IMG/VR virus record: IMGVR_UViG_3300030102_000377 | Coordinates: 7,113-35,836 of that record | Source: a virus | DNA: 28,724 bases | Strand: one strand, 5' to 3' | Shown: positions 76-25,104 of the stretch, piece by piece | Layout of the letters: each line of letters starts with the position of its first letter | Position numbering within the stretch: the stretch's first letter is position 1 | The notes under the pieces: generated by a model | Told to the model about the DNA's origin: nothing | Database searches by the model: none | Seen by the model: the letters and a program-made list of their open reading frames with translations, nothing else | Translations under genes and position numbers: made by a program

Positions 76-537
76 ATGACAAACATGACGAAGAAGGAAG
101 AGAAGGTATGGGATTATCTTCTGAAAAACAGAAAAGCAGAAAACGCAGAGGTAGCAAGCGCGTGTGACGTTGACATACACTTTGTAAAAAATCTTATTTC
201 ACGTATCGGATCAGAAAACTGGCGAGAAGAAACGGATCTAGAGAAGCTTATATCTGAATGGGATTGGATGAAGCGAGATGAAATTTTAGACACTGCTAAA
301 AAGTACGTTACAAAAGACCGTGCAGCAGAGCATGGCGATATGGAAGATAACTTTCAGCGCATCGCCGCATATTGGAACGCACACCTTGGACTGGTCGACT
401 TTATAAAAACAGAAGATGTTGCAGCGATGATGGCACTACTAAAGATTGCTCGCATACATTCTAACCCCACACACATGGACAACTGGGTAGATGCCTGTGG
501 GTATCTAGCTTGTGGCGGTGAAGTCGCGAGCAAGTAA
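76..537 (+). CDS. HTH-like N-terminus fused to DUF6378-type domain, phage protein
   Basis: 153 residues. Residues 1-65 read like a small winged-helix or helix-turn-helix domain (EEKVWDYLLKNRKAENAEVA, then CDVDIHFVKNLISRIG). Residues 70-150 match the pattern I recall for DUF6378: a helix with DRAAEHGDMEDNFQRIAAYW, then EDVAAMMALLKIARI and the closing NWVDACGYLACGGEVA. DUF6378 proteins are common next to phage replication genes; their biochemical role is not established to my knowledge, although the all-helical, acidic-residue-rich layout recalls MazG-like nucleotide pyrophosphatases (inference only). The ATG at 76 is preceded by AAGGAGA about 6 nt upstream, a good ribosome site, and in-frame stops lie upstream, so the gene is complete. 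It ends one base into the polymerase start, so translation is probably coupled. Confidence 0.75.
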   Translation: MTNMTKKEEKVWDYLLKNRKAENAEVASACDVDIHFVKNLISRIGSENWREETDLEKLISEWDWMKRDEILDTAKKYVTKDRAAEHGDMEDNFQRIAAYWNAHLGLVDFIKTEDVAAMMALLKIARIHSNPTHMDNWVDACGYLACGGEVASK

Positions 538-2351
538 TGGACGTTTATACTCTAGACTTTGAAACTTACTATGATCAACATTACTCACTGTCCAAGCTGA
601 CAACAGAGGAGTATGTGCGTGACGAACAGTTTGAGGTTATTGGTTTAGCTATCAAAAAGAACAACGGTTCTACGGTATGGTTAGATAGTCCTGGAAGAAT
701 CAAACGTTTGTTATCACACATAGACTTCTCTGCGTGTGGTATACTCTGTCACAACACGATGTTTGACGGAGCAATATTAAAGTGGCGATACGGTGTTAGT
801 CCAAAGATATGGTTTGATACTATGTATATGTCACGTGCATTGCATGGTGTAGAGAAAAGCGCATCACTCAAAGCTGTAGCCGAGAGGTACGGCGTAGGTA
901 TCAAGGGCACTGAGGTGCAGAATGCCAAGGGCAAGCACCGTGCCGATTTCACCGATGAAGAGATAAAGAGATACGGACACTATGCTAAGAATGATGTTGA
1001 TCTGACATTTAAGCTGTTCAAGAGCATGGGAGTCAAGTTTCCACAACAAGAGTTAAAGCTGATAGACTTGTCTCTACGTATGTTTATCGAACCTACACTT
1101 GAGTTGGATCTTGGGTTGTTGCAGCAGCACCTTGAGGATACAAAGGCACGCAAGGAAAAACTGCTAGAAGATGCCAACATTACCGACAAGAAAGATCTGA
1201 TGTCAAATCAGAAGTTTGCTGATATGCTACGTGAGTTTGATGTCGAGCCACCGATAAAGGTAAGTTTGACAACAGGCAAGGATACGTATGCGTTTGCTAA
1301 GTCCGACGAAGGGTTTAAAGAATTACTTGAGCATGAGGATGATCGTGTACAAACTTTAGTTTCGGCACGGCTAGGCAACAAGTCCACATTAGAAGAGACA
1401 CGTACAGACAGGTTTATAGGAATTGCTCAACGTGGTAAGCTCCCTGTACCCGTGAGATACTACGCGGCACATACAGGTAGATGGGGTGGGGCTGACAAGA
1501 TTAACCTACAAAATCTACCAAGTCGTGGGGTCAATGCAAAGAAATTAAAGAAGGCTATTGTTGCACCCGAAGGCTATACAATAGTCGAGGCTGATAGTGC
1601 TCAGATTGAAGCGCGAGTTCTTGCATGGTTATCAGAGCAAGACGATCTTGTTAGTCAGTTCACTAACGGTGAAGATGTGTACGTCAAAATGGCAGGTCGT
1701 ATATACGGCTGTCCAGAAGAGGACGTTACAAAAGATCAGCGTTTCGTTGGTAAGACTACCATACTCGGTGCAGGTTATGGTATGGGCGCGGAGAAGTTTG
1801 CAACACAACTGAAGACGTTTGGGTATGAAGTGTCGCCCGATGAGGCCCGACGCATAATTAATATTTACCGTCAATCAAACTTTAAAATTAGTAAGCTGTG
1901 GCGTGACGCACAGTACATGGTTAGTCAGTTGGCTAACGGTAGAGCCATGGCGTTCGGGCGCAAAGGCGTGATTGGCGTTGATGCCAGTAACAAGGCTTTG
2001 ATCTTACCATCTGGACTTCCATTGTTTTACGAAGATTTAAGTTATGACGGTGATGAATACACATACAAGGTGCGGCGAGGCCGAAACAAAATCTATGGTG
2101 GGAAAGTGATAGAGAATGTTTGTCAAGCTATAGCACGTTGTATAATTGGTGAACAGATGCTAAAGATAGCTAAGAAGCACAAAGTTGTGTTGACCGTGCA
2201 CGATAGTATTGTATGCTGTGTAAAAGATAACAAAGTAGACGAAGCACGAGCATTTGTAGAGACATGTATGCGTTGGACGCCCGACTGGGCGGCAGGTTTA
2301 CCTGTTGATTGCGAAAGCGGAGTAGCTAAGTCATATGGGGATTGCGAGTGA
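537..2351 (+). CDS. polA: DNA polymerase family A with 3'-5' exonuclease domain
   Basis: 604 residues, the usual size for a compact phage Pol I without a 5' nuclease. The N-terminal proofreading domain keeps all three DEDDy motifs: exo I D7-x-E9 (TLDFETYYD), exo II HNTMFD ending at D77, and exo III Y149xxxD153. The polymerase domain has the TGRW thumb/palm motif (313-316), motif A at 350-360 (VEADSAQIEAR, catalytic D353), motif B with R402, K406, L410-G411 and Y414-G415, and motif C VHDS with catalytic D556. The residue matching E. coli Pol I Phe762 is leucine (L410). No DnaJ-like insertion is visible between the two domains. The stop TGA overlaps the GTG start of the downstream nuclease. This is surely the replicative polymerase; only its lineage is open. 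Confidence 0.97.
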   Translation: MDVYTLDFETYYDQHYSLSKLTTEEYVRDEQFEVIGLAIKKNNGSTVWLDSPGRIKRLLSHIDFSACGILCHNTMFDGAILKWRYGVSPKIWFDTMYMSRALHGVEKSASLKAVAERYGVGIKGTEVQNAKGKHRADFTDEEIKRYGHYAKNDVDLTFKLFKSMGVKFPQQELKLIDLSLRMFIEPTLELDLGLLQQHLEDTKARKEKLLEDANITDKKDLMSNQKFADMLREFDVEPPIKVSLTTGKDTYAFAKSDEGFKELLEHEDDRVQTLVSARLGNKSTLEETRTDRFIGIAQRGKLPVPVRYYAAHTGRWGGADKINLQNLPSRGVNAKKLKKAIVAPEGYTIVEADSAQIEARVLAWLSEQDDLVSQFTNGEDVYVKMAGRIYGCPEEDVTKDQRFVGKTTILGAGYGMGAEKFATQLKTFGYEVSPDEARRIINIYRQSNFKISKLWRDAQYMVSQLANGRAMAFGRKGVIGVDASNKALILPSGLPLFYEDLSYDGDEYTYKVRRGRNKIYGGKVIENVCQAIARCIIGEQMLKIAKKHKVVLTVHDSIVCCVKDNKVDEARAFVETCMRWTPDWAAGLPVDCESGVAKSYGDCE

Positions 2352-3019
2352 GTATAGCACCTTGGTCATTTAGCAAAGCAAAGGCATTTGAAACGTGCCC
2401 TAAACAATTCTATCACGAGAAAGTGTTGAAGCAGTACCCTGTCGAAGAGACAGAGGCTATGCGTTACGGCACAGAACTTCATAAAGTTTGTGAAGACTAT
2501 ATAGGCAGCGATGTGCCAGTGCCAAAAAAATTTGGCTTCATTCAAGGTATGCTTGACAATCTAAACTCTAGGCGCGGTATCAAAGTGTGCGAAAAGAAGA
2601 TGGGTCTGACCGCTAACTTAGAACCATGTGGGTTTTTTGACAAACGTGTTTGGTTTCGCGGGATAGCTGACTTGATAATCATAGACGTATTAGCAGGTGT
2701 TGCGTATGTCATAGACTACAAAACGGGCAAGTCGGCTAGGTACGCTGACAAAGGACAGTTAGAACTAATGGCGCTGACTGTATTTAAACATTATCCTGAC
2801 ATAAAAAAGATCAAGGCAGGACTTTTGTTTGTAGTTGCAAACAGCCTAGTCAAAGAAGAATACGAGATTGACTCAGAATCAAATCTTTGGGAGAAATGGT
2901 TAGGAATTTATGGTAAGATGGAAAAAGCATTTGAGTCGGACGTATGGAATCCACGCCCATCTGGGTTATGTAAACGCCACTGTCCAGTGCTTGAGTGCGC
3001 CCACAATGGGAGAAACTGA
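2348..3019 (+). CDS. PD-(D/E)XK nuclease, Cas4/RecB-like, probable Fe-S cluster
   Basis: 223 residues from the GTG at 2348, which overlaps the polymerase stop (GTGA) and lies about 8 nt after GGGG; a TTG six bases earlier is possible but less likely. The opening APWSFSKAKAFETCPKQFY and GTELHKVCEDY (H45) are typical of the RecB/Cas4/AddB nuclease superfamily. The catalytic core is visible as GIAD (D108), VIDYKTGK (D123 and K125) and Q137. Cys17 near the N-terminus and a C-terminal cluster C208-x3-C212-x4-C217 form the four-cysteine layout that holds a 4Fe-4S cluster in Cas4 and AddB, here with slightly different spacing. It should resect or trim DNA ends during replication or recombination. 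No CRISPR array or cas1/cas2 is nearby, so this is a phage replication nuclease rather than a CRISPR component. Confidence 0.9.
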   Translation: MSIAPWSFSKAKAFETCPKQFYHEKVLKQYPVEETEAMRYGTELHKVCEDYIGSDVPVPKKFGFIQGMLDNLNSRRGIKVCEKKMGLTANLEPCGFFDKRVWFRGIADLIIIDVLAGVAYVIDYKTGKSARYADKGQLELMALTVFKHYPDIKKIKAGLLFVVANSLVKEEYEIDSESNLWEKWLGIYGKMEKAFESDVWNPRPSGLCKRHCPVLECAHNGRN

Positions 3020-3324: not shown

Positions 3325-4860
3325 ATGCAGATTATTCGGGATAAGGCAGTCCTGTTGAATTTGCGCAACCCAAAAAGGGTCACAACAGTGATACCAAACA
3401 GCAAGGAGTTGTCGATGAATGAAGTAGTAGTCAAATGGGGTATGTTTGAAGCCCTAAAACTAAAAAGTTTAAATATAAACGTGCCCTCACCTATTAGCAA
3501 ACGTTACAAATGGGCTGGGCAACATAAGCCTTACGAACATCAGAAGAAAACAGCAGAGTTCTTAACAATGAACAAACGTGCTTTCTGTTTTAACGAACAG
3601 GGCACAGGTAAAACTGCATCAGCAATATGGGCTGCTGACTATCTAATGACTCAAAAGCAGATAAGGCGTGTCTTAGTAGTTTGCCCGCTCTCGATCATGG
3701 ATAGCGCATGGCGTGCAGACTTGTTCTCCTTTGCTATGCATCGTTCTGTAGATGTGGCTTACGGTAGTAAAAAGAAACGTACAGATATAATTAATAGTGG
3801 CGCAGAGTTTGTAATTATAAATTATGACGGTGTAGACATTGTTAAAGAAGACATAATAAATGGTGGGTTTGATTGCATCATTGTAGATGAAGCCACGCAT
3901 TACAAGAACGCACAAACCAAAAGATGGAAGACACTTAAAAAGCTAATCGCTGATGACACTTGGTTGTGGATGATGACAGGTACACCTGCCGCACAGTCTC
4001 CGCTAGATGCTTACGGCTTGGCAAAACTGATTAACCCACTAAACGTCCCAAAGTTTTTTGGTTCTTTTAGAGACATGGTAATGTGGAAGGTGACACAGTT
4101 TAAGTGGATGCCAAAAGAAAACGCCAGTCAAATAGTACATGAGGTGCTACAGCCTGCTATTCGTTTTACAAAAGAAGAGTGTCTTGATTTACCAGACATG
4201 GTTTATGTTAAACGTAAGGTAGAGATGACCAAGCAGCAGGTAAAATATTACGAAGAGCTACGTAAAAAGATGGTTATGCAGGTAGAAGATGAAAGCATTA
4301 CCGCCGTTAATGCAGCTATCGTACTTAACAAACTTCTGCAAATATCATCAGGCGCTGTGTATACGGATGACAGTGAGACATTAGAATTTGATATATCTAA
4401 CCGTTATAATGTTTTGAAAGAGGCAATAGACGAAAGCAGTCAAAAAGTATTAGTGTTTGTTCCTTTCCGACACACCATAGACTTGTTAGTCAACAGGCTA
4501 ACGGCGGATCAGATAACGTGTGGTGTCATACGAGGAGACGTGTCTGCGTCTAGAAGAACAGAGTTATTTGATAAGTTTCAAACTACACCCAACCCTCAAG
4601 TACTGATAATACAACCGCAAGCCGCAGCGCATGGGGTAACACTAACAGCAGCGAATACTGTTGTGTGGTGGGGTCCAACATCGTCTTTGGAAACATATGC
4701 ACAGGCAAATGCACGTGTCCATCGCTCTGGGCAGAAACATAAATGCACTGTTATTCAACTTTATGGTTCAGCCGCTGAACAACGTATATACAGATTGTTG
4801 GACAGTAGGATTGATGTACATACAAAAATTATAGATTTGTACAAAGAACTACTTGACTAA
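3325..4860 (+). CDS. SNF2-family DEAD/DEAH-box DNA helicase/translocase
   Basis: 511 residues with a complete set of superfamily 2 motifs. The Q-like region is YEHQKKTAEFL (70-80), Walker A is EQGTGKTASA (K96), motif II is IIVDEATHYK (D188-E189), motif III is MMTGTP (216-221), and the second RecA domain ends with motif VI QANARVHRSGQKHK (460-473), a hallmark of SNF2 proteins. The SGQ and following VIQLY strongly favour SNF2 over RecG or UvrB families. It probably moves along double-stranded DNA to remodel forks, displace proteins or drive branch migration; such proteins are common in marine phages lacking a DnaB-type helicase. RBS GGAGA lies 6-7 nt before the ATG. No fused nuclease or zinc domain is seen. 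Confidence 0.93.
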   Translation: MQIIRDKAVLLNLRNPKRVTTVIPNSKELSMNEVVVKWGMFEALKLKSLNINVPSPISKRYKWAGQHKPYEHQKKTAEFLTMNKRAFCFNEQGTGKTASAIWAADYLMTQKQIRRVLVVCPLSIMDSAWRADLFSFAMHRSVDVAYGSKKKRTDIINSGAEFVIINYDGVDIVKEDIINGGFDCIIVDEATHYKNAQTKRWKTLKKLIADDTWLWMMTGTPAAQSPLDAYGLAKLINPLNVPKFFGSFRDMVMWKVTQFKWMPKENASQIVHEVLQPAIRFTKEECLDLPDMVYVKRKVEMTKQQVKYYEELRKKMVMQVEDESITAVNAAIVLNKLLQISSGAVYTDDSETLEFDISNRYNVLKEAIDESSQKVLVFVPFRHTIDLLVNRLTADQITCGVIRGDVSASRRTELFDKFQTTPNPQVLIIQPQAAAHGVTLTAANTVVWWGPTSSLETYAQANARVHRSGQKHKCTVIQLYGSAAEQRIYRLLDSRIDVHTKIIDLYKELLD

Positions 4861-4909: not shown

Positions 4910-5299
4910 ATGGGCGTTTCAATAGAGAAGCTCGTAAAAGCGTACATAAAGATACGTGATCAGCGTAGCGAACTTGCTAATAAGTTCAAAGAAGAAGAGA
5001 ACATACTTAGTGAAAAGTTAGCTAAAATAAAGAGCGCATTGCTAGATCATTGTAAAGAGCACAATGTCGAATCGGTGCGTACAAACGAAGGGGCGTTCTT
5101 TAGGTCTATCAAACAGCGTTATTGGACAAGCGACTGGGAAAACATGTACGAGTTTATACGAGAGCATGATGTACCCGAACTTTTTGAGAAACGTTTGAAC
5201 CAAACAAATGTTCGTCAGTTCCTAGTAGAAAACCCTGATCTTATACCGAAAGGTCTTAACGTGGACTCGGAGTACACAGTATCAGTGAGGAAGAAATGA
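4910..5299 (+). CDS. Coiled-coil phage protein, Gp157-like in layout
   Basis: 129 residues. Residues 5-50 form a charged helix with heptad-like spacing (KLVKAYIKIRDQRSELANKF, then EEENILSEKLAKIKSALLDH), followed by a compact C-terminal domain with a GAFFRSIKQRYWTSDWENMY segment and the ending LNVDSEYTVSVRKK. The closing pattern (hydrophobic residue, DSEYTVSVRK) is typical of small phage proteins found beside SSB and recombination genes, and the overall form recalls Siphovirus Gp157-like proteins. A role as a replication or recombination accessory factor is suggested by context only. The ATG follows TGGAGA by about 6 nt, and its TGA overlaps the next ATG (ATGA), implying translational coupling. 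Confidence 0.75.
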   Translation: MGVSIEKLVKAYIKIRDQRSELANKFKEEENILSEKLAKIKSALLDHCKEHNVESVRTNEGAFFRSIKQRYWTSDWENMYEFIREHDVPELFEKRLNQTNVRQFLVENPDLIPKGLNVDSEYTVSVRKK

Positions 5300-5520
5300 C
5301 AGAAAAAACATATGTAGAGATAGGCAAGGTTGCTGACTACTTTGGCATATCAGTATCGACAACTAGAAAATGGTTGCGTGAGGGGCATATCCCAAGAGAA
5401 ACTTATATAAAGGCAGGTGATACGTATCGTTTCAATGTAGAAGCGATAGAGAAAGCGTTGACACGCCATGAAGAGTTAAACTCTTGGGAAGAAAACTCCT
5501 CAACATCTGAAGATCATTAG
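5296..5520 (+). CDS. MerR/excisionase-like helix-turn-helix DNA-binding protein
   Basis: 74 residues. The opening YVEIGKVADYFGISVSTTRK followed by WLREGHIP is the classic MerR-like or HTH_17 fold: helix, turn, recognition helix, then a wing where DTYRFNVEAIEKAL completes the domain. The C-terminal tail is acidic and serine-rich. Excisionases (Xis) share this fold, but no integrase or att site is visible, so a transcriptional regulator or DNA-architectural protein is at least as likely. Start ATG overlaps the previous stop (ATGA). It sits mid-operon in the replication arm, so it may regulate this arm or the switch to late genes (inference). Confidence 0.8.
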   Translation: MTEKTYVEIGKVADYFGISVSTTRKWLREGHIPRETYIKAGDTYRFNVEAIEKALTRHEELNSWEENSSTSEDH

Positions 5521-5535
5521 TAAAGGGAGAGACTA

Positions 5536-6243
5536 ATGATCCATGCAGCGGTAGCTGAACACAAACCAAACCAAATTACCATCGGGGGTAGACGTTTTTC
5601 TAAGTCTGTAGGTGGTGATCCTGTGGGTGTGGTTGACGGTTCATTGAACATGGTAATAGTTAACGCTGCAAAACTGGCTCGTACTTATTATAAAGATATG
5701 TATGATTCAGAAAATCCATCTGCTCCTACGTGTTGGTCGTCAGATACGCAGAGACCATCACCTGATGTACCGTTAGAACAGAAACAAGCAGCTCGCTGCA
5801 TGGACTGTGTACAGAACATTAGGGGATCAGGCGAAGGGGGTGGTCGTGCTTGTAGGTTTTCGCAACGTCTGGCGATTATACTAGAGGAGCAGATGGACAC
5901 TGTTTATCAAATACGCATCCCTGCAACTTCTATTTTTGGGAGACCCGAAAATGGTAACATGGGGGTGCAAGCTTATGCTAAATATTTACAGAAGCATAAG
6001 ACTCCGTCTATTGCTGTTGTTACACAGATGTATTTTGACAATAGTGTAGACATGCCGAAACTTTTCTTTAAAGCTGTTCGTGCTCTTGACGAACAAGAAC
6101 TTGAAGTAGCGTTGAAGCAAAAAAGCAGCCTTGCGGCAAGCACTGCTGCATTACAAACCATGGTGACGCAAGACAAAACTACCGTGGGTAAATCGCCATT
6201 TACTGAAGTAGATGGTTTTGAATATAACAAAGGAGAAGACTAA
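5536..6243 (+). CDS. Uncharacterised protein with possible Cys4 metal site, coupled to SSB
   Basis: 235 residues, family not recognised. The N-terminal half contains four cysteines that could bind zinc: C66, C88, C91 and C106, with C88-M-D-C91 as the closest pair and a Gly-rich stretch RGSGEGGGRAC before C106. The segment CWSSD...PSPDVP precedes the second Cys pair. The C-terminal half is helical with a Lys/Ala-rich segment and no recognisable catalytic motif. Its TAA overlaps the ATG of the probable SSB gene (TAATG), so the two are made together, suggesting a partner of the SSB or a DNA-binding accessory protein. RBS AAGGGAGAG is close before the ATG at 5536. Function is not assigned. Confidence 0.75.
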   Translation: MIHAAVAEHKPNQITIGGRRFSKSVGGDPVGVVDGSLNMVIVNAAKLARTYYKDMYDSENPSAPTCWSSDTQRPSPDVPLEQKQAARCMDCVQNIRGSGEGGGRACRFSQRLAIILEEQMDTVYQIRIPATSIFGRPENGNMGVQAYAKYLQKHKTPSIAVVTQMYFDNSVDMPKLFFKAVRALDEQELEVALKQKSSLAASTAALQTMVTQDKTTVGKSPFTEVDGFEYNKGED

Positions 6244-6962
6244 TGGCAGAAGCCAAACCCATATATCTAATTGAAAATGTTGAAGCTATGTACCCTCGTC
6301 TGGATCAGACTTATAGGTATGACAGAGATATCCCACCAAGGGGTAAAACCGTGGCTTGTGGTCCAACGGAGGAAAATGCAAAGTTTGAAATGGACTTTCG
6401 CATGTCTAAATCACAAGCAGAAAAGCTTTATAAAGCTATGGCAGCGGCTTACAAAGCAGAGGCTAAACCCGATTGGCCTGCCATGCCTAAAGCTACTGAA
6501 GTGTTTGAGAAAGACCAAGAGGGTATGTATATCGGATCGGTGCAGTTAAAAGGTCAGTATAAAGGAAAGATTACTGAACCACCTCTGCATGTGGACGCAA
6601 AGAACAAGAAGCTACCGCCAGAGTTTAAACTTACTCACGGTAGCACCATAAATATAGGTGTAGTTTTTGTGCCTTATAGCATGAGTTCGCACGGAGTGTC
6701 GTTAAGGATCAAAGCGGTGCAAGTTTTAAAAGTTGCTGAGAAGAGACAATACTCTCCGTTTGAACCACAAGAGGGTTTCTCTGTGGAAGAAGAAGACGCT
6801 TCATCTGTGTTTGAAGATGTGGTTGATACTGCTCCTGTTGAAGCAGATGAGATACCAACACCGAAAAAGGTCACTAAAAAGAAAGAGGTAACTGCTCCCT
6901 CTTCTGGCGATGACCTTGATACTATCGTGGGTGATTTGTTTGACGACGAGGACGACGAATAA
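6243..6962 (+). CDS. ssb: Probable ssDNA-binding protein with acidic C-terminal tail
   Basis: 239 residues. The body has the strand-rich, Lys/aromatic pattern of phage OB-fold ssDNA-binding proteins of the T7 gp2.5/DUF2815 type: NVEAMYPRLDQTYRYD near the start, then a GSTINIGVVFVPYSMSSHGV region and SLRIKAVQVLKV around residues 135-163. The last 70 residues are low-complexity, with a Lys patch (PKKVTKKKEV) and a strongly acidic end (DLFDDEDDE), exactly like the tails that recruit polymerase and helicase in gp2.5 and bacterial SSB. It should coat single-stranded DNA at the fork. The ATG overlaps the previous stop and follows AAAGGAGAAG. The family call rests on pattern and tail, not a database match. 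Confidence 0.75.
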   Translation: MAEAKPIYLIENVEAMYPRLDQTYRYDRDIPPRGKTVACGPTEENAKFEMDFRMSKSQAEKLYKAMAAAYKAEAKPDWPAMPKATEVFEKDQEGMYIGSVQLKGQYKGKITEPPLHVDAKNKKLPPEFKLTHGSTINIGVVFVPYSMSSHGVSLRIKAVQVLKVAEKRQYSPFEPQEGFSVEEEDASSVFEDVVDTAPVEADEIPTPKKVTKKKEVTAPSSGDDLDTIVGDLFDDEDDE

Positions 6963-6978
6963 CACCTAACGATAGTCT

Positions 6979-7019
6979 TGCCGTGGTGGAGTAGACTCCT
7001 ATCACGCCCCACCACGGCA
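6979..7019 (+). other. 11-bp perfect inverted repeat (RNA hairpin) between SSB and primase genes
   Basis: TGCCGTGGTGG at 6979-6989 pairs perfectly with CCACCACGGCA at 7009-7019, with a 19-base loop. Inside, GGAG (6988-6991) and CTCC (6996-6999) can form an alternative small stem. The tail (TTTAACTTT) is T-rich but not a continuous run, so it could act as a weak terminator or attenuator lowering primase-helicase expression, an RNA processing site, or a DNA operator. Confidence 0.6.
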
Positions 7020-7039
7020 TTTAACTTTGGAGTAGAGCA

Positions 7040-9886
7040 GTGAATACGGTAGACTTTTTAAAGAGTGTATTGGGCGATGAGGGGTACTCATGCTTGATAA
7101 CTATAGATTTGTGGCAACAAAAACCTGTGCCAAAGCACTACTGGTTTGAAACAGTAGAAGAGCTTGTAGCCAAAGCTACAGAGGTAGACACGTTCCCACA
7201 TAATGTTTACTTTGCCACGAGCACTTACAACGAAGAAGGCTCTCAGTGGGGTGGTAGATCTAAAGCAAATGTAAAGAATATAAAAGCATTTTGGTTAGAC
7301 TTAGATTGTGGAGAGGGTAAAGACTTTCCAACACAGACAGATGCTATACAAGCACTAAAACAATTTAAAAAAGATGTGGGACTACCTGCACCGATAACCG
7401 TAAACAGTGGCAACGGTATCCACGTTTACTGGCCTTTGACAGAAGCTGTAACGCGAGAGGAGTGGGAGCCTGTCGCTTCTAAACTAGGGCAGCTTTGTAG
7501 GGAGCATGACTTTCCTGCGGACGCATCTCGCACCACAGATGCAGCTAGTATTTTAAGACTACCTAGTACACATAACTATAAAAAAGACCCGCCCTTACCT
7601 GTGGATCTTCTCGGCAAAGATTTAGCTTCACCTATAGAGTTGTCTGTGTTTGTTGACAAGCTAGGTGGGATAGCTCTTAAACTACCTACATTAGATCTTG
7701 GTCCAGACGCGTTACAAGAAGCTTTAAACGAAAATAAAGAGTTTTCTTTTGGTCGAATTATGAAAAAGACATCCATGGGTAATGGGTGTGAACAGTTACG
7801 AAATATAGCTGTAAATCAGAATGAGGTGGAAGAGCCACTGTGGAGAGCAGGACTATCTATTACAAAATTTTGTAAAGAAGGTGAGAAAGCCGCGATTGCA
7901 ATATCTAGTCGGCACACTGAGTACGACGAAGAGTTCACTCTTAAAAAGTTTGACGAGATAAAAGGACCATACCTTTGTGCTAGATTCAATGAGTTGAACC
8001 CAGATGTGTGTGAGGGATGTCCGCATTGGGAACAGATAAAGACACCTCTAATATTAGGGCAGCGTATCAAAGCAGCGTCTGGTCCTCAGATCGTTTCTGA
8101 AAAAGCCGCTAATAGCCCAAGCAGTATAAAGCGCGAATACGTTATACCCGAAATGCCGAAACCATATTTTGGTGGGGAGAATGGTGGTGTATATGTTCGT
8201 GTTAAAGAAGATGACGAGTTAATCGATAAAGTTATTTATAGACATACGTTCTATGTATCTCGCCGTTTGTATGATCAGGAGCAAGGCGAGCTAGTTGTAT
8301 TTAGATTGCACCTGCCGCAAGACGGTGTGCGTGAGTTTACAGTTCCGCTAACTGTAGTGACAGCGCCGAATGAGTTTCGTAAAGCAATGTCAAAAGAAGG
8401 CGTTACAGCAATATCATCACAGGAGACAAACGTACTCATGTCGTACACAAATAAATGGATAAGTGAGTTACAACAAACAGTTAAAGCAGACGAGGCACAT
8501 AGGCAGTTTGGTTGGGTAGATGACGAGATGACAGGTTTTGTTCTAGGGGACAAACTAATTAGACCTGACAAGGTGCAATACAACCCTGCATCGCCATCTA
8601 CGTCTAGCTTGTTCCATGCTTTTGGAGAGAAGGGCACTAGAGAACGACACTTAGAGATGATCGACTTTTACAATAAACCTGACGAGGGATGGCTTCTACA
8701 TCAATTTAATGTCTGTGCAGGTTTCGGCTCTGTTCTTATGCCGTTCACAGGTATGAACAGTTTAGCAATCCATCTAACAGGTGGGTCTGGCATCGGTAAA
8801 ACAACAGCGCAAGCAATGGGACTAGCTGCATGGGGAGACCCTTGGGCGATAATGAACCGCGCTATTGGGTCAGAAGATACCTTAAATTCTTTTATGAATA
8901 GGTGCGAGGTGCTAAAAAATATACCGCCTGTGGTGGACGAGCTTACAAGCATATCAGGTGAGTTCGCGTCTGGGTATCTCTATCAGATGACTGGCGGTAG
9001 GCAAAAGAACCGTCTCGCACAGTCTGGCAATATAGAAAGGGTACGTGGTAAACCGTGGGAACTTCTGTCTTTGAGTTCGGCTAACTCAAGCATGTGGGAT
9101 GCTGTCACTGGTTACAAAGCCGATGCCGAAGCAGAACTGCTACGTCTTCTTGAAATAAGCGTGTCAGATATGGAACTTTCAACAGAGGATAAGAAGATAA
9201 CAGACAAATTGTTTGAAGAGGTTAAAGTAAACTATGGTTGGTTGGGTATTGAGTTTGTGCAGTGGGTTATGAACAACAAAGAAGAAACACGTACCATTTT
9301 AGATGCGGTTCGTGTTCGGCTAGACCAAGCAGCAGGGCTTACATCTAAGCATCGTTTCTGGTCGGCAGGAGTGGCAGCAGTGCTAACCGCAGCGATAATA
9401 CTCAGGAAGAAATTAAGCATCACCAAATATAATACTAGCAATATTTTTGATTGGTCAGTTAAGCAGCTAATACTAGCGAAAGCACGTATGGGAGATGCGA
9501 AGTCTGATACAAACGAACTATTAGGTAGGTACATAGCTGAAAAATGGAACAACATTCTTTGGATAAACGATACCGAAAGCAGCGATGGAGACCTATCAAA
9601 TATTAGTAGCCTAGTGCCACCTGCCGAAAAAGACCCAAGAAGCTTTATTGTTGCACGGTATGAAACAACTAGCGAGAAATTATACTTGTTACCTACACCA
9701 TTGAAAGACTGGTGTGTAAAGAATCAGATAAACTATAGTGAATTGTTGACTAAACTAAAGAACAAGTTCCAGGCAAAGAGCGAACAAAAGCGCATATTCG
9801 CAGACACGTACATGGGAAAGACACCTTCTGTCAAAACATGGTCTATAAAGTATACATTGGACGGTGAAGATGGCGTTAAAAATTGA
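7040..9886 (+). CDS. Primase-helicase: PrimPol-type primase plus DUF927 ATPase
   Basis: 948 residues from a GTG start that follows TTGGAG by about 8 nt; no better ATG is nearby. The N-terminal third is an archaeo-eukaryotic-type (PrimPol) primase: FWLDLDCG with D87 and D89, NSGNGIHVYW with H128, and D161 followed by ILRLPSTHNYK. The C-terminal half carries the DUF927 helicase-like ATPase: HLTGGSGIGKTTAQAMGLAA with Walker A K587, and a Walker B-like PPVVDELTSI (D633-E634). DUF927 proteins are linked to superfamily 3-like or related ring ATPases in plasmids and phages. One chain can thus prime and unwind, and no DnaB- or DnaG-type gene is seen in this arm. A CxxC pair near residue 315 (CARFNELNPDVCEGCPHW) is like the zinc or Fe-S elements of other primases. 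C-terminal residues beyond 800 are unassigned. Confidence 0.9.
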   Translation: MNTVDFLKSVLGDEGYSCLITIDLWQQKPVPKHYWFETVEELVAKATEVDTFPHNVYFATSTYNEEGSQWGGRSKANVKNIKAFWLDLDCGEGKDFPTQTDAIQALKQFKKDVGLPAPITVNSGNGIHVYWPLTEAVTREEWEPVASKLGQLCREHDFPADASRTTDAASILRLPSTHNYKKDPPLPVDLLGKDLASPIELSVFVDKLGGIALKLPTLDLGPDALQEALNENKEFSFGRIMKKTSMGNGCEQLRNIAVNQNEVEEPLWRAGLSITKFCKEGEKAAIAISSRHTEYDEEFTLKKFDEIKGPYLCARFNELNPDVCEGCPHWEQIKTPLILGQRIKAASGPQIVSEKAANSPSSIKREYVIPEMPKPYFGGENGGVYVRVKEDDELIDKVIYRHTFYVSRRLYDQEQGELVVFRLHLPQDGVREFTVPLTVVTAPNEFRKAMSKEGVTAISSQETNVLMSYTNKWISELQQTVKADEAHRQFGWVDDEMTGFVLGDKLIRPDKVQYNPASPSTSSLFHAFGEKGTRERHLEMIDFYNKPDEGWLLHQFNVCAGFGSVLMPFTGMNSLAIHLTGGSGIGKTTAQAMGLAAWGDPWAIMNRAIGSEDTLNSFMNRCEVLKNIPPVVDELTSISGEFASGYLYQMTGGRQKNRLAQSGNIERVRGKPWELLSLSSANSSMWDAVTGYKADAEAELLRLLEISVSDMELSTEDKKITDKLFEEVKVNYGWLGIEFVQWVMNNKEETRTILDAVRVRLDQAAGLTSKHRFWSAGVAAVLTAAIILRKKLSITKYNTSNIFDWSVKQLILAKARMGDAKSDTNELLGRYIAEKWNNILWINDTESSDGDLSNISSLVPPAEKDPRSFIVARYETTSEKLYLLPTPLKDWCVKNQINYSELLTKLKNKFQAKSEQKRIFADTYMGKTPSVKTWSIKYTLDGEDGVKN

Positions 9887-10138: not shown

Positions 10139-10167
10139 GACCCCTACATCTTGTGGGGGTCTTTTTT
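10139..10167 (+). terminator. Strong intrinsic terminator of the + strand operon
   Basis: GACCCCTACA (10139-10148) pairs with TGTGGGGGTC (10152-10161), a 10-bp stem with one T-G wobble and the 3-base loop TCT, followed at once by six T residues. It stops transcription of the replication arm before it runs into the oppositely oriented virion genes. On the - strand the stem is not followed by a T run, so it is probably one-way; the - strand stop codon TAA (10166-10168) overlaps the T tract. Confidence 0.9.
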
Positions 10168-13100
10168 AATCAAACTGTTCGGCTATCTCTCTCATGGTTG
10201 GGGTGTATGTTATGCCCCTACGCATGTTTGCTGTTGTTGTCTCGAAAGATCTTGCCGAAGCTTTTATAGAATCAGGACTAATAACCTTAGACGTGTCTCT
10301 ACGTGATTCTTCAGGTAATCCAGCATTGTACTCACGTATCTCTTTCAATACTTGTTGATATTCTGCTGTATCTCTTTCTCTACGTGCCATGTTTAGTCTA
10401 CGTAGCAAGTTTGTTTTCTTGTCTTTTAATGCTTGATCTCGTCTGCGAGACAAACGATTTATGTCCATCGCCAATCCCAAGTGTTGCGGTGCAAAGCCGA
10501 ATGCTTGAGTAATTATATTGTAAGGGCTTAGATCTTCTACAATCGGATCACGTCTACGAGTTAACGCACCCTCAGTGGCGTAACGCTCTGCTTTCATGAA
10601 GTTTCGGATTGCCACAGGTGCTATGCCTTCTACACCTCTGCGGTACTCCCCTCGACTAAAGTCAGTTATAGCTCTCTCAGTACCTAAATAGTATCCTACA
10701 ACTGGTCCACCTAGCTGTTCAAACATTGTGTATAGCATCGGCTGATCTTTACCTACGATTGGTTCTCTGTATAGTAAGCTGTTCATAGAGATACGATCTG
10801 CTATGTCTACACCGAGAAGCTCGTTAGCTAGGCCACCGTAATAAAATTCACCTAAGTTGTTACGCATCATTTCTTCAAACTGCTCGTCTTCTTCATCGCG
10901 GAACATGTCGTACAGCATTCCAAAGAAACCCATCAGTGGCATACCGCCTACACCAGTTACCACGCCTGTGGTAAATAGGAAGTTAAACAATGCTTTTCTA
11001 GCAATACGTTTCATCTCTGCTTTTTGTTCTGGGGTCAGGTTAGGATCAGCGTCTATCTGTGCGCCGATTGAATCTTTGGCTAGTCTATACATGAGGTAGT
11101 ACTTACCAACAGCAAAACGTTTGAAGAGAAATAATATGTTACCTACACCGCTTTGTGCCCATATCGGACGCCCTGCCGCAGCCGTCGAACCTAGAGAGAA
11201 GTTTGTAAAGTCTATAGCAGCTTCAGCCGCATCAATATAATCTTGATCAGTTAGAGGACCACTTTTTTCTCTCTTTTGCAGCTCAAGCTCATACTTGGCT
11301 ATGTATGTTGTTTCTCTGTTTAATCGTTCAGAGTGGTGAAACAATCCACCAGAGATAGAGTTAATCGCTTCTATAGCTTTTCCTGGAGACGAACCTGCCT
11401 CTAACATCTCACCTGTTAACGACTGGTTAAATATACCGCGTTCCATACCCATATTGACTGCGGTTTTATATCTATACAGCGGATTGTTAACATCTACCTC
11501 TGGTGCGTTAACGTCCAGATTACCTATAGACTTGTTTATACCACCTAATTGTATTTCTCTTACACGTGGCTGACCGTCTGGACCAATGTCTCTAACAGTA
11601 TAAACAGAGGAAGCTTGCCCAAACAAATTGCGTGCAACTCCATACGCCTTGGCTGTATTACCTAACCCATACTCTGCGGACAGCAAAGGCATCGCACTCA
11701 TCAGCACATCAAAGAAAGTTATGGCAGCAGATGAAAAGTTAAGACCCATGGTGGTTGCAAACCCTAGTGTATTGGCTTGCTGTGACCAACGAGGCAAGTT
11801 TGGTGACTGTGCAAACCTAGCCATTTGATCTAGTTTTTCTGCCATCAGGTATGTGTCAGGGTTCTCTTTTGCACCTGATACTTCTAGCTTCCTACGAAAT
11901 GCTTCTGTTTCGGCTGCGTATTTTAGCTGTGTGACCTGTTTGTTCATGTCACGACCTTTGACATTGACTAACTCACGTAGATCAAATTGCTGACCTAATG
12001 CACCCGTGGGTGTCTTATCGCCAAGGTAGCCACGTACATCTTTACGGCTTCTAAAGCCTTGCATAAACGACTTCTCAGGTAACGCGTCAAACACAAGATC
12101 AATCACACCATCTAATGCTGCGCCTTCTACGCCTTGGGTTTTTAGTTCTTGTAGCAAGTCAAATATAAATGAACTTGGTGGCACGTTGTCGTAGTTTCTA
12201 CGTGCTGTAGCTTTACCAAACTCTATGGCTGTGTCAGGGTTTAAAGTCTGTGTTAAGTTAGGGTTCTGTCTTATTAGACCTATATTGCGAGTACGTATGG
12301 CATCGGCTGCTTTTTCAAGCATGCCCTGATGTTGAAAGTACTCTACAAAAACTTCTACTCCACCCGTGTCTGGGTCAATAGTCGTATACTGTAATCGCCA
12401 GTCACCTTTACGCATTAGTGGGGCGTATGGGCGAATAACACCTGCTTGTTCGGTAAGCATCTTACGAAGTTTGTCCATCGCTTTGGCTCTACCATTTGGA
12501 TCACCTATTGAAGCAGCTATACGCGATTCTAGAGCAGGTATAATTTTGTCGTATGTTTCTTCAAACAAATCAAACACTTCACGATATAACTTCTTACCTT
12601 GGTTATCTAATTTTTTATATTCTGCTTGCAGCGTATCATACATAAGTAATGTATCTGGATTAGGTTCAGGCAACAAAGCAGCTTTTGAAGTTTTAGCAGG
12701 ATCGATATTTTTGTTGTGTTGTTTTGCAAAATTTAATCTTGCTATCTCTGTTGGAAAATATTTTACAGTAGATTTACCAGTTTTTAGGTTTCTAAAAGAA
12801 ACACCAAACTGTGAGTATACCTTTCTAGGCAAAGACATATCTACACGATTAAAGGTAGATAAAGGAATAAGCCCTTCTAGAATCTTGTACCTTGCTTTGT
12901 TTCCTCTATTATACGCACCTAATCTTTTGTCTAGGTTGTTTACAACCATGTTCCCAATACGCATTTCTCCGCTTTGACGTTCTATAATCGCATTTAACTC
13001 AGGTGCAAATGGTATGTATGGTGCAGCTTCTTTAGCCATTATGTTAGAAGGAATACTGTTAAGTATAAAACGACGAGCTGCTTCAGGTACAGATCTGCTT

Positions 13101-16100
13101 GCAGATTGACGCATAAATGTTTTAAGTCTTTTCTGATCTCCTTCTGGGATCATATCTAAAGAACCTTTTACCGTGCCTGCTAACTCGTTTGGATCGGTCA
13201 TTTGCATCATCATTGCAGGTGCGGCTCTAGTAGAAGGTGCAGGAGACATAATAGCTCGTACAAGATTATCTACTTCATCTAGCACAGAGTTTACTGGTCT
13301 AGGCTGAAGTCCCATGGCTTTTCTTACCATGTTTATAATAGAGCGAAGAAACTTTTTGTAAGCAGGGACAGTACCGTTATCTACTTTTGTTAGTGCTAAA
13401 TGCGTTTGAAACTGAGGGTTAGACAGCGCCTCTGCTACAAATTCTTGTAAATCTTTAGATCCGTAAAACTCGCCAATATCATCTTTAATCTGTAAGAATA
13501 AGCTGTTTAATTGTGCTACTTCTGGGACTGGTGTTTTAGCATCTAACATATGAGATACAACCGCATGCATCATTTCATGCAAGACAACATGTTGATGCAA
13601 ACCACCATCACGAACAAGGCTAATTGTATTTGTTTCAGGCGTAAACATACCAACTGAATCAGGATCAGGTAGTCTGTCTACAATCTCTACTTTTGTACTA
13701 CCAACTAATTTTGATAAAGCAGCAGATAATTTTGCTGCTCTCAACATCGGACTGTCTGCAATTTTAAATATTGCTTTTTTAGCCTCTGGTTCTGTGGCTG
13801 CGACCCCGTCTATGGCAGCTTGCACATTGTTAGCAGCGAGTGTTTGCAGTGCTAAATCAAGTCTGCCTGAATCAAGAGCACGTGTCACACTAGGATGCAT
13901 AGGCACATCAAATGGTACTACGGCGTCTCTTCCTAAAAAGAATGCTCTAAAGTGTTTTTGCAAATTAGCTTTTGAGTCAATATCTGTACCTAAATCGGTA
14001 GCTTCTGTTCCATCTTTATCAAATTCTAAACGCTCGTCTTTTCTTGTCTGAGCTGCTTGTCTAACTTTAATGAAATTTGAAAACCTTATATACATACCTG
14101 CACGTGCTTCTAACCACTGCCTAGCTGTATCACTTAAATTATTTTGAACCCACTCATATGCTAGTAAACCATTTTTATTGCCTGTGCCTTCAAAAAAAGC
14201 ATTTTCTCCATCGTCAACCTGTTTGTTTTTTCTATACGTGGCTACAGGCTGACCTTTGCTCTTACCACTTTGATGTATGATAACTCCTGCGGCATCGTAG
14301 GCAATTAAATCTAACACTTCTATGACGCTTGGTATTTTGCTAAAATATAGTTTAGCGGGCTTACCTAAAGCGCCTGTGCCACGAGTGAATCTTGTAGTTC
14401 CGAGTAATGTTAGAGTCTTTGTTACATCTTCTGAAAATACAACTGGTAATTTAAGAGCGGGGTCAGAAGCAGGAGCGTCATAACGCTCGTAAACAAAGTC
14501 TCTAAGAACTTTATCATTATTTTGTTGCCACCATGCGGCATATGTTTCTTTTAACGGCGCTATAATAGGCGCATCTTCTTTTAGATTGCGTTGTTTAACT
14601 CGTTCTTCAATATCACGTAATCTTTGATTTTGTGCTTCTTCAGACGCATCTATATTTAATTCTTCAAGCGTAGGTTCTTTTTCTACAGGTCGTATACCTT
14701 CAGGAACAAATTGACCTGGACCCGCAGGAGCACCTGTTTCTTCCCCTTTGCCTATACCTGAACGTCTTGAATCTTTTTTAGCGGCTTTCTGTGCATCATA
14801 GTTAGCTTTCCAAGCATCATACTCTGCACCTATAGGCTCACCTGCTTCTTCGTATGCTTTATCTTCTAGTTCTTGTTCTTTACGCTTTGCTTCTGCTTCT
14901 GCAACTTGGCGATCAAACTCAAGAGCTTCTTTTTCCTTCGCTTTTTGTCTTTCTGGGTCTCTAGCTTTAGCAGCAATGTCTTCAGCAAGAGCGCGTCCAG
15001 TTAATCTATTTGTATCTTCTTCTACTTCTATATCTGTATCTGTATCTGTATCTGTATCTTCTTCTACTTCTGTATCTGTATCTGTATCTGTATCTATATC
15101 TACTTCTGGTTCTACTTCAGGTAGACTGGTGAGAAGTTCATTTAATTTAGTTTGATAATCAGGAACTTGTCTTCTTATTATTGCATTGTTGCCATAACTT
15201 AATAGTTGTCGCTGTACGTCTTTATCAGTTATAGGCTTGCCAGTTATACGTCTACGTATCGCAGCGTTCTGGGTAACACCAAGATTGTCTAAAAGTTCTT
15301 TAGTAACTTCTGTAGGAACTTCATCGGTTTTTGTTTCTAACTCACCCGTTGAGTTTTCTTCGATAGTTTGTTTTCTAGTGCTAGTAAATTTAGGGACTTC
15401 TTTTTTATCTTTTTTTACTGTAGTGGACTGTTTTCTCTTTGCCACATTAGGTAGCTTAACAGTTGACAGATCTGTTCCCACTCCTCCTGTGTTAGGTGAT
15501 ACAGCGTCTTCGGTATTCGTATCTCTACCTCCTGCCCCTTCCGTTCCTGCCACGCTAGGTCTACGATTTGCATCGCCTGTTCCAGTTCTTTTTGATTTAG
15601 ATCTAGCATCATCCTCTCCTCTTGCTCTGAGAGTTCTTTCTTTATTAGAAGTTACTTGATTTTTCTCAAGCATTTCTTTGTTTATTTCATATCTTTTTAT
15701 AAAAAAGTCTTTTTCTGCCGCTGTAAGATTTTCAAAAAAAGAAGAATAAGATCTATCTTCCATAATTTTTGCTGCTTCTTTTTTAGAAAGTCCTGTTTTT
15801 TGTAGACGATCAAATTCTTCATAAAATTTAGCTCTTTTAGCAATAAACTCTTCATCTGTTTCTGCATCTGCTTCTGGCTGTGCGGCATCCTCTTCTGCTT
15901 TTATTTCCTCTGCTCTGTTTTCTATTTTCTCATCTGTATCTAGATTACCTGCAATCGTGGCTGCGGAATCTTCTTTTACTTCTATTTCTGTTGCGTCAGT
16001 GGTGCGTGAGTCTTCTGTAACTTCTGGCTCTTTACGTTTGCCAAATGCAGCGCGACCCACCCCACCAATTCCTGTTCCGAGTAGACCACCTGCAATAAAC

Positions 16101-22600: not shown

Positions 22601-22862
22601 CTACAAACTCCTTCGTGCCACAGACACGTTCATAGACCATGTCAGAGGTATAACTTTCTGCCCATTTATTTTCTGTAAACGTACAAAACTCCCACAAATC
22701 ATTCACATCTGAGTTGAGTAACTCAATGATATCTTCTTGTGCAGATACTGTTCCCTCAAGATGTTCGATGTCGTGAACCATACCAGAGATGTACCAGACT
22801 AACGCCACTAACTGCACAGCCATAGCAAAGACTAGAGCAACAGGTATTTTTAAATCACTCAT
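22593..22862 (-). CDS. Single-pass membrane protein of the lysis cassette, possible spanin-like
   Basis: 89 residues. One clear transmembrane helix at about 6-27 (IPVALVFAMAVQLVALVWYI), then a periplasm-facing, charged and probably coiled-coil region (EHLEGTVSAQEDIIELL). This N-in/C-out layout fits an inner-membrane spanin subunit (i-spanin) or a holin-associated protein. No lipobox partner (o-spanin) is seen in another frame, so the spanin call is tentative. ATGA overlap with the upstream holin gene and overlap with the endolysin tie it to lysis. Confidence 0.65.
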   Translation of the reverse strand: MSDLKIPVALVFAMAVQLVALVWYISGMVHDIEHLEGTVSAQEDIIELLNSDVNDLWEFCTFTENKWAESYTSDMVYERVCGTKEFVDE

Positions 22863-23245
22863 TTCTTACTGTCCGTTTGTTTTAGCTTATCGAATGACCT
22901 CATTCCTCCAATCCCAAGCATGCCAAGTAACAATGGCATCATCACCGACATATCAGCCTGTGGTATTTCAAAGCCAAAGCCTAAAGCAATTGGGGCAATC
23001 ATGTAATTTATACCGAGCGATATGCCTGCGATCCATCCAATAAGGGGTCGCCAAGATGACTGGAACCAGTTGCCTTGAGCATCGGCTTGCAAGATCTTTA
23101 ACTGCTGCATCACAACTGCCTGATGGTTTTTTTCTGCCATCGTTGCAATCTCGTGCGCTAGTTTTGCTTTTTGGTCTTTATCTTCTATGACCTTGTCAAG
23201 AACGCTTGAAACTGGGTCAATAAGCTTTTCTACTAAACCTAGCAT
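22859..23245 (-). CDS. Holin, GTA_holin_3TM-like
   Basis: 128 residues. A charged helical N-terminus (KLIDPVSSVLDKVIEDKDQK) is followed by the typical NWFQSSWRPLIGWIAGISLG (59-78) leading into hydrophobic helices at about 67-91 and 99-114, and ends with a basic tail. The W-RP-xGW pattern is characteristic of the gene transfer agent/phage 3TM holin family, where an N-terminal amphipathic helix counts as the third segment. It should form the lesion that frees the GH19 endolysin. It overlaps the next gene by 4 nt and follows the previous gene by 2 bp. Confidence 0.82.
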   Translation of the reverse strand: MLGLVEKLIDPVSSVLDKVIEDKDQKAKLAHEIATMAEKNHQAVVMQQLKILQADAQGNWFQSSWRPLIGWIAGISLGINYMIAPIALGFGFEIPQADMSVMMPLLLGMLGIGGMRSFDKLKQTDSKK

Positions 23246-23247
23246 TT

Positions 23248-23472
23248 TTATTCCTCTTCAACCTTCTTTTTTGAAGATGTAGACTCTTTGCCCATCCAGA
23301 TGCCGAAACAACCAGTGAGCGCACCCATACATACAGACACCAGACCGCTTTGTGCAACAGATGGATCTGATAAACTCATAAACCAATGCACTGCTTGATA
23401 TGTAAGGATTGTAACTGCCAACATCATGAGGCGTGGCAGAACTTTCCAATCATCTAGTACGGTAGCAGGCAT
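23248..23472 (-). CDS. Two-helix small membrane protein, holin-like
   Basis: 74 residues with two hydrophobic helices, about 13-31 (RLMMLAVTILTYQAVHWFM) and 42-60 (GLVSVCMGALTGCFGIWMGK), joined by a polar turn, and a charged tail rich in Lys and Glu. This is the layout of class II holins. Position directly upstream of a 3TM holin, a single-pass protein and the endolysin supports a lysis function, perhaps as a second holin or antiholin. The start overlaps the previous stop (TAATG). Confidence 0.7.
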   Translation of the reverse strand: MPATVLDDWKVLPRLMMLAVTILTYQAVHWFMSLSDPSVAQSGLVSVCMGALTGCFGIWMGKESTSSKKKVEEE

Positions 23473-24578: not shown

Positions 24579-24811
24579 TACGTTTCTCCTGATATTGCTT
24601 CGGGCGCGGTTACCGTAATAGCCGTGTGCCGTTTAGTTTCTGCCGTCCAAGACTTTCCGCAATCAGGACACTTCCCATCTGGATACGAGGCAACCTCTTC
24701 TGGTGTGTCTACTACGTTATCACAGTGATGACACTGCAACTTGTCTACAGATGTTGATGGTCTAAACTTAGAGCCATCTCCTATTACTATAATATGTTCA
24801 TCATCGCTCAT
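24578..24811 (-). CDS. Small zinc-ribbon protein
   Basis: 77 residues. Four cysteines in two CxxC knuckles, C27-H-H-C30 and C48-P-D-C51, form a zinc ribbon, with the second knuckle ending CPDCGKSW. The rest is polar. It could be a small DNA- or protein-binding factor; being inside the virion operon, a virion-associated role is also possible. Its ATG overlaps the previous stop (ATGA). Confidence 0.75.
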   Translation of the reverse strand: MSDDEHIIVIGDGSKFRPSTSVDKLQCHHCDNVVDTPEEVASYPDGKCPDCGKSWTAETKRHTAITVTAPEAISGET

Positions 24812-25104
24812 GTCGTACTCACTGTTACTGTCCCTACACTCCCCGTGCCTTGAGATCCACGAAGAAAAGCAGAGTGGGTTAAAGGCACTCTAACACGACC
24901 ATCGTGTTGAAATAAAGTCCCAGTTTCAAGTCCACTGTCATCTGTGGGCAAATTGGTAATAGTTATCTCTGTTGCCCTAATATCTCCTGGGTTCTGGATC
25001 TGCTCCAAAAACACAGAAAACGCACGAATAACCTCACTAAAATACGTTCTTTGATATTGCTCTGGGGGTATAGGAAAATACGGACGAGGTAAACGTCTGG
25101 ACAT
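24808..25104 (-). CDS. Small virion-operon protein with GTGSVGTVTV end
   Basis: 98 residues, no known domain. The N-terminus is Pro/Arg-rich (MSRRLPRPYFPIPPEQYQRT) followed by a helix and a strand-rich end. Residues 86-95 (GTGSVGTVTV) match the repeat unit of the protein at the right edge of the window, both in protein and in the underlying DNA (ACTGTTACTGT on the + strand at 24821 and 28268). It could be a small tail component. The start overlaps the gp10-like stop as TGATG. Confidence 0.6.
   Translation of the reverse strand: MSRRLPRPYFPIPPEQYQRTYFSEVIRAFSVFLEQIQNPGDIRATEITITNLPTDDSGLETGTLFQHDGRVRVPLTHSAFLRGSQGTGSVGTVTVSTT

Follow-up and report, generated by a model that had tools for sequence, protein, structure and literature searches.

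The window analyzed here is a 28,724-nucleotide stretch of viral DNA, comprising bases 7113-35836 of the 35,836-base IMG/VR record IMGVR_UViG_3300030102_000377 (genome G000; locus L083). It encodes a family A DNA polymerase (PolA) with leucine at the position equivalent to residue 762 of E. coli Pol I, and it carries copies of a gapped palindrome inside polA and inside a downstream SNF2-type gene. A preliminary description of the window had concentrated on the leucine as a possible marker of lifestyle. That residue assignment is correct, ordinary and already known. The palindromes, which probably serve as operators of a dispersed repressor network, are our main result and bear on the lifestyle question more directly than the residue does.

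Palindromic sites in polA and other early genes

A repeat search in the left flank of the record yielded three perfect copies of an 18-bp palindrome, GTTAGTC-N4-GACTAAC. This palindrome represents what we call type A, and a motif scan placed three sites of this type in the window, two of them within polA.

537..2351, plus strand: polA, family A DNA polymerase with an N-terminal 3'-5' exonuclease, 604 amino acids (Pfam DNA_pol_A E 1.3e-39, DNA_pol_A_exo1 E 7.6e-8)
1650..1667: type-A site 1 inside polA, GTTAGTCAGTTCACTAAC, one mismatch (motif scan)
1920..1937: type-A site 2 inside polA, GTTAGTCAGTTGGCTAAC, left arm of type A and right arm of type A2 (motif scan)
4485..4502: type-A site inside the SNF2 gene, GTTAGTCAACAGGCTAAC, one mismatch (motif scan)

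Against these three sites at up to one mismatch, 40 shuffles of the window (first-order Markov simulations, here and below) averaged 0.03 sites, and none contained more than 1. L004 and L005 likewise have a third type-A site, about 3.95 kb past the polA start.

Four relatives of 58-62 kb (G001-G004) have the same gene order as the window's record, with G001 reversed and G003 permuted, and each of the four has its own main palindrome. Sites of the main type with at most one mismatch number 6 in G000 and 10, 10, 11 and 12 in G001-G004, against shuffle means of 0.00-0.35. All of them lie in the early region, which makes up 25-48% of each record within boundaries that we drew ourselves. In a motif-free search of loci of at least 6 kb (66 loci, 14 of 80 being shorter and dropped), 35 of the 66 contained at least three copies of one gapped palindrome, above their own shuffles, and 0 of 1,320 shuffles reached three copies. 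In 41.9 kb of the cultured Rhizobium phage RHph_TM3_14A, GTTACC-N6-GGTAAC occurs 31 times with at most one mismatch, and 25 of these sites are in the rightward block. No palindrome family above two copies was found at arm length 6 in 35-42 kb stretches of the control phages KPP25, Rollin and phiA008. Overall, the sites are phage-specific and dispersed in early genes, as stoperators are.

Site types and the first early gene

At least six palindrome types occur. These include A (GTTAGT-N6-ACTAAC), A2 (GTTAGC-N6-GCTAAC) and B (TTGGTC-N4-GACCAA), with C (GTAGTG-N3-CACTAC), C2 (GTAGTT-N3-AACTAC) and F (GCGTGG-N7-CCACGC) as further types. Within a locus they are largely, not wholly, exclusive, and L121 has an extra variant, GTAGT-N5-ACTAC, in 8 copies. 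Sites of different types occupy homologous positions. Codons 41-55 of the early gene p354 contain a site in types A, A2, B, C, C2 and F, codons 173-179 of the VWA gene in types A, A2, B and C, and polA codon 464 in types A, B and A2; a site upstream of the VRR gene likewise stands at a homologous place in different types. At polA site 2 both arms change jointly between types, from a perfect GTTAGTCAGTTGACTAAC in L003-L009 (type A) to GTTAGCC-N4-GGCTAAC in L010-L013 (A2) and GTTGGTC-N4-GACCAAC in L014-L017 (B), and the PolA protein sequence is altered too. The polA genes of L019, L041, L057, L073 and L082 have no such palindrome. L010 combines type A at polA site 1 with A2 at site 2, and both this mixture and the hybrid site 2 of the window look as if caught in transition.

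The candidate partner of the sites is the first rightward gene of the early region. It is hypervariable, encodes about 180-210 amino acids and lies just right of a divergent gene with a weak match to terminase small subunits. Its families p181, p202 and pF are mutually related (hhalign 97%). The gene is recognizable in 53 loci, which after removal of 10 duplicates give 43 non-redundant cassettes. In 41 of the 43 the first-gene family matches the dominant palindrome type, whereas 20,000 label shuffles gave no more than 27 matches; the family-type pairs were defined after the data had been seen, and the count drops to 40/43 if L017 (27% identical to pA2) is scored as a miss. The site motif thus goes with the sequence of the candidate repressor, an association of the kind described for stoperators. 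In 40 of the 43 cassettes, a perfect site of the matching type precedes the first gene by no more than 260 bp. Of the three exceptions, L061 is truncated at the contig end, the site of L041 is imperfect as judged by eye, and L121 has its variant. The promoter site usually stands beside a sigma70-like promoter, consisting of TGTGACA, about 17 bases and TATAAA or TATACT (by eye).

G003 and G004 are 98.0% identical in PolA, 97.8% in SNF2 and 93.4% in the small HTH_17 protein, yet their first genes give no BLAST match to each other and their palindromes differ. The sister locus of the window, L112, which has type-A sites and is 99% identical over the shared 153 amino acids, carries a pA first gene. 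In L163 and L164 one palindrome type prevails near the cassette and mostly the other type further away, and in G003 a few sites of the other type persist, apparently as relicts. We read these mixtures as putative cassette exchange with lagging conversion of the remaining sites.

The predicted structure of p181 is helical, with a mean predicted local distance difference test (pLDDT) score of 80.6. Its best viral structure match is the uncharacterized A0A6J5RDQ4 (E 0.03), and a second structure alignment gave Z scores of at most 5.7, mostly over short helices. We obtained no tblastn match to p181 in 50,697 phage records. The model of the type-A first-gene protein (mean pLDDT 45) was too poor for use. 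Separately, a G-rich block (about GGGGGGTGGGGGGTAGGTGGGGT) was seen by eye before the palindrome and promoter in many relatives, for example upstream of 5082 in L093 and upstream of 2666 in L140.

The palindromes could also be RNA hairpins in the early transcript, read by a first-gene antiterminator in an N/nut-like manner. The position of the gene, the type-specific pairing and the dispersed inverted repeats with short loops would suit such a system. However, the site next to the promoter is often located, as seen by eye, before the -35-like element and so outside the rightward transcript; L113, L114, L118 and L134 have a site closer to the first gene, about 50 bp upstream. Moreover, of 115 one-mismatch sites read on the early strand, a count in which types A and A2 overlap, 16 leave a G.T pair and 30 an A.C pair, with one in six expected by chance for each. 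This lack of an excess of G.U-compatible mismatches favors recognition of DNA over RNA. No T-run was seen by eye after the G000 sites, for which no dedicated scan for intrinsic terminators was made. We consider RNA recognition very unlikely.

Gene neighborhood, residue 762 and lifestyle

The genes around polA form a replication module in the order DUF6378, PolA, PD-(D/E)XK exonuclease, SNF2, HTH_17, Gp2.5-like and DUF927 primase/helicase. The codon of the leucine and the neighbors of polA are as follows.

76..537, plus strand: DUF6378 protein, upstream of polA (Pfam PF19905 E 8.7e-32)
1764..1766, plus strand: codon CTC of L410, equivalent of E. coli Pol I position 762 (alignments)
2348..3019, plus strand: PD-(D/E)XK (RecB/Cas4-like) exonuclease (Pfam PDDEXK_1 E 7.1e-14)
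3325..4860, plus strand: SNF2-type helicase/translocase (Pfam SNF2-rel_dom E 1.7e-25)
5296..5520, plus strand: small HTH_17 (excisionase/MerR-like) protein (Pfam HTH_17 E 1.1e-8)
6243..6962, plus strand: Gp2.5-like single-stranded DNA-binding protein (PHROG 112 E 1.5e-12)
7040..9886, plus strand: primase/helicase-like protein with DUF927 (Pfam DUF927 E 4.2e-18; PHROG 8841 DNA primase/helicase E 1.1e-36)

PolA matches the PHROG 17 DNA polymerase family (E 1.7e-88), and its polymerase and exonuclease domains are both above the Pfam cut-off. With phmmer, residues 71-426 align to the E. coli Klenow fragment (8oo6_A, the best PDB match; E 3.8e-28). Motif B, R402-FVG-K406-TTI-L410-GAG-Y414, aligns without gaps and places L410 under the Phe of INFGLIYG, which we take to be residue 762 of E. 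coli Pol I. L410 falls in the same column when PolA is aligned with 20 cultured phages, a plasmid, two contigs of metagenome-assembled genomes and two relatives. The preliminary description had named this leucine and advised alignment with characterized phage enzymes, and the alignments bear it out, with neither Phe nor Tyr at 762 in this PolA; the second half of the span it gave, GGT at 1767-1769, is G411. Among the 20 cultured phages, hand-picked out of 2,101 tblastn hits, position 762 is Leu in 17 and Phe in 3. Leu is present in 82 of 82 covering loci, namely the best 80 of 532 IMG/VR relatives (75-98% PolA identity) and two copies of the window's record; an 83rd locus, L002, does not cover the position. 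Motif B reads RFVGKTTILGAGYGMG in 80 of these loci and RHIGKTTILGAGYGMG in 2. As all covering relatives have Leu, the residue is fixed in the close family and is no accident of reading.

In an eight-member alignment D7, E9, D77, Y149, D153, R402, K406, H555 and D556 are invariant, and motif A (DSAQIE), the R/K of motif B and the HD are present in PolA. With catalytic roles that we assume by analogy to E. coli Pol I, the expected catalytic residues are all there, and the replicative PolA is apparently intact. The SNF2 and PDDEXK_1 neighbors are those of the Leu762-PolA setting. No match to a DnaB or gp4 ringed helicase was found among ten early proteins scanned.

Leu762 is linked to temperate phages in passages of two papers (Nasko 2018, PMC6302109; Keown 2022, PMC9069017), both of which cite Schmidt 2014, so the proposal invoked by the preliminary description does exist in print. 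One reading, suggested by that description, is that Leu762 directly marks a temperate or slow-replicating phage. A tyrosine integrase above the curated cut-off is carried by 5 of the 17 cultured Leu762 phages and 0 of the 3 Phe phages, so that all 5 integrase-bearing phages of the sample have Leu; 12 of the 17 have none, including a Jerseyvirus, a Kagunavirus and KPP25. No resolvase-type match was found in the 20 phages. Motif B of CRPAP1904 carries Leu762, and this phage is called lytic on the basis of growth and absent integrase homology (PMC13340246). Likewise, B. elkanii phages with Leu762 are described as virulent in PMC12632393, whose authors add that lysogeny cannot be excluded. According to a 2026 preprint (PMC13228545), Leu placed in T7 polymerase, a Tyr enzyme, removes 97% of activity, and native Leu enzymes are argued to carry compensating changes. 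Leu762 is compatible with either lifestyle and alone says nothing firm about it, and we judge a direct marker role improbable. PolA residue 762 is used as a lifestyle proxy in viral ecology, and the present sample shows that the proxy alone is weak.

After the replication module, the window encodes a 2,268-residue protein, an endolysin, a holin and a virion protein on the opposite strand. The C-terminal part of the 2,268-residue protein of this virion gene cluster (10166-16972, minus strand) matches DarB-like and other giant phage proteins, and by eye the protein contains a zincin-like HEMMH motif. The left 7.1 kb of the record, outside the window, encodes an ATPase (PHROG 1297), a DUF2201/VWA protein, an Hjc-like nuclease and a tandem HTH_3 protein. 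The record begins within the conserved early gene p354, and the first early gene is missing from it. Since G001-G004 share its gene order, the window's record is probably a fragment of a genome of about 60 kb. A search of G000-G004 for end repeats found none, and no RNA family reached the gathering score in the window. At the left edge of the window, near L083 7100-7130, there is a short run of N (10 N in all of G000), and the open reading frame (ORF) at 6939-7130 reads XXXX, so the record was scaffolded there.

Two helix-turn-helix (HTH) proteins were set aside as regulators. HTH_17 was rejected as the best candidate for the specificity protein, G003 and G004 sharing 93% identity in it while their operator types differ. 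The tandem HTH_3 (Cro/CI-type) protein, encoded at L083 5813-6472 about 1.2 kb upstream of polA and outside the window, has no convincing BLAST homolog in G001-G004, where weak PolA matches were the only ones. Nor did G008 give an HTH_3 match, although the same sites occur in its stretch L007. Of 15 records searched, only 2 had HTH_3 above the cut-off.

The preliminary description had reported an excisionase-like HTH gene and no integrase. The HTH_17 protein is real. Its gene is kept beside the replication genes in 5/5 genomes compared (G000-G004), and because it is conserved where no genome has an integrase match, it is not evidence for excision. As for integrases, none of the tyrosine or resolvase type was found in the whole 35.8-kb record, nor in the five relatives of 58-62 kb, G001-G004 and the 61.9-kb G024. 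The tyrosine integrase family PF00589 was matched in 0 of 23 relatives, most of which are, like G000, fragments, and in 0 of 6 among G000-G004 and G024, and the resolvase family PF00239 was not matched in these six. A record in the comparison, MN988472.1 (L100), has a gene annotated as a putative integrase at 30610-33693, which is a homolog of the window's DUF927 primase/helicase (26% over 827 columns, E 8e-58). We found no PF00589 in this record, and its annotated attL occurs once in the stretch examined.

There is one main rival explanation. The first gene could encode an early-gene regulator of a strictly virulent phage, which sets timing by shut-off or activation, with types diverging to avoid cross-talk in coinfection and no lysogeny at all. 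In line with this, the IMG/VR genomes searched have neither integrase nor resolvase nor ParA, the first gene stands behind an early promoter-like region, and distant cultured relatives are plaque-isolated or reported lytic, the Rhizobium paper not naming RHph_TM3_14A in its main text. On the other hand, phages with 98% identical PolA that have unrelated first genes and different operators present the pattern expected of immunity selection, and sites within genes and at gene ends suit blocks to elongation. We therefore regard a purely virulent timing system as rather unlikely.

Partition or genome marking was considered as well. A related PolA (29% identity, Leu762) is encoded on CP061838.1 (L168, positions 22859-26594), a 60.5-kb circular E. 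coli plasmid record that also has a DEAD/DEAH helicase, DUF927, a holin, a lysozyme and, adjoining polA, a ParB-like gene (ParB_N below the cut-off). This plasmid is possibly a phage-plasmid relative; no close match to it was found in E. coli genomes or phages. The palindromes might accordingly be centromere-like or nucleoid-type sites, and their types the incompatibility groups of phage-plasmids. However, ParB_N (PF02195) and the ParA-type AAA_31 (PF13614) gave no match in G000-G004 or G024, and in the plasmid stretch no palindrome family exceeds 2 copies at arm length 6 or 5 copies at arm length 5. The sites moreover flank the early promoter and follow early genes, and a partition role appears distinctly improbable to us.

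A putative repressor/operator network

We consider it probable that the sites belong to an immunity-type, stoperator-like repressor/operator network with swapped specificities, in which polA is embedded. The product of the first rightward early gene is most likely the protein that binds the 15-19 bp palindromes beside the early promoter. It would also bind some ten other sites spread over the early and replication genes and, in type A, inside polA. We infer that it represses rather than activates: once bound, it would block initiation as well as elongation of early transcription, as stoperator repressors do, with shut-off and immunity to superinfection as the outcome. New immunity types would arise when the repressor cassette is exchanged and the distant sites are then converted step by step, and diversification between near-identical phages suits superinfection immunity. 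As no known integrase was found, any lysogeny would be episomal or pseudolysogenic.

Several observations weigh against this network. No qualifying palindrome family was found in 31 of the 66 loci, many of which have little upstream sequence, and 6 of the 31 sites in RHph_TM3_14A lie outside the rightward block. L165 has two types interleaved close to the first gene, and both L121 and L165 misfit a simple pairing of family and type. The counts are not independent, because the loci are related. The window's own record is without the first gene. Among the first-gene families, the pA, pA2 and pB proteins are not detectably related to p181, p202 and pF and are weakly related to one another (A8 against A5 56%), and the first gene of the Rhizobium phage is not detectably homologous to p181, p202 and pF either. 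A scan of 14 first-gene proteins gave no Pfam match over the cut-off; the sole hint of a regulator comes from one member, in which 36 residues match an Arc-like repressor family (E 6e-4), and the p181 model has no Foldseek match in the PDB with E <= 0.001. In the comparison of G003 with G004, five further early ORFs of G003 have no match in G004, three of them short neighbors of the first gene, so the comparison singles out a block and not one gene. Other early ORFs of G003 are merely 65-75% identical to G004. Nor was an integrase, resolvase or partition ATPase found in the IMG/VR genomes searched. In addition, no close prophage was found in 84,980 bacterial and archaeal genomes, a scan of limited sensitivity that used two peptide patterns only and returned two distant hits, with 40% and 28%.

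A comparison with known systems places the proposed network closest to dispersed operators. The stoperators of Cluster A (L5-type) mycobacteriophages, as described in PMC6550527, are likewise many and dispersed, with phage-specific motifs that follow the repressor type and with intermediate types. They differ in being 13 bp long and mostly in one orientation, whereas the sites here are palindromes of 15-19 bp. In contrast to Cluster A, no HTH was recognized in the first-gene protein, no integrase was found and binding to the sites is a prediction. Lambda operators are clustered at two promoters, while the operators proposed here are scattered across roughly 15 kb and also occur inside genes. 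What the network shares with lambdoid CI immunity, as a concept outlined in PMC6550527, is heteroimmune types with swapped specificity of repressor and operator. With the Leu762-PolA groups as presented in passages of Nasko 2018 and Keown 2022, the window shares the Leu at 762 and the RecB/Cas4-like exonuclease and SNF2 beside polA, and we found no difference. RHph_TM3_14A (60.9 kb) has a similar module with Leu762 and its own palindrome, and its PolA is 34.6% identical over the full length and its SNF2 protein 41% identical to those of the window. It differs in the palindrome itself and, as stated above, in the 6 sites outside the block and in its first gene.

The operator network was not found described in the open-licence literature on stoperators and dispersed operators in marine or virome settings, where the papers met with were on mycobacteriophages or of a general kind. 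With at least six palindrome types here and the Rhizobium type in addition, we tentatively suggest, as a possibility short of an even chance, that uncultured phages with Leu762 PolA have a new, fast-diversifying immunity system. Such a system would consist of a helical repressor superfamily with hypervariable specificity and its own dispersed palindromic operators, would evolve by cassette exchange and stepwise conversion, and would support a non-integrating temperate state, either episomal or pseudolysogenic.

The sites embedded in polA accompany amino-acid changes of the polymerase, which calls for caution when PolA variation is read as adaptation of the enzyme. If the network is true, the immunity types of uncultured phages would be readable from contigs, and cassette swaps and half-converted genomes would be observable in nature. 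The cultured Rhizobium phage would then make the system testable.

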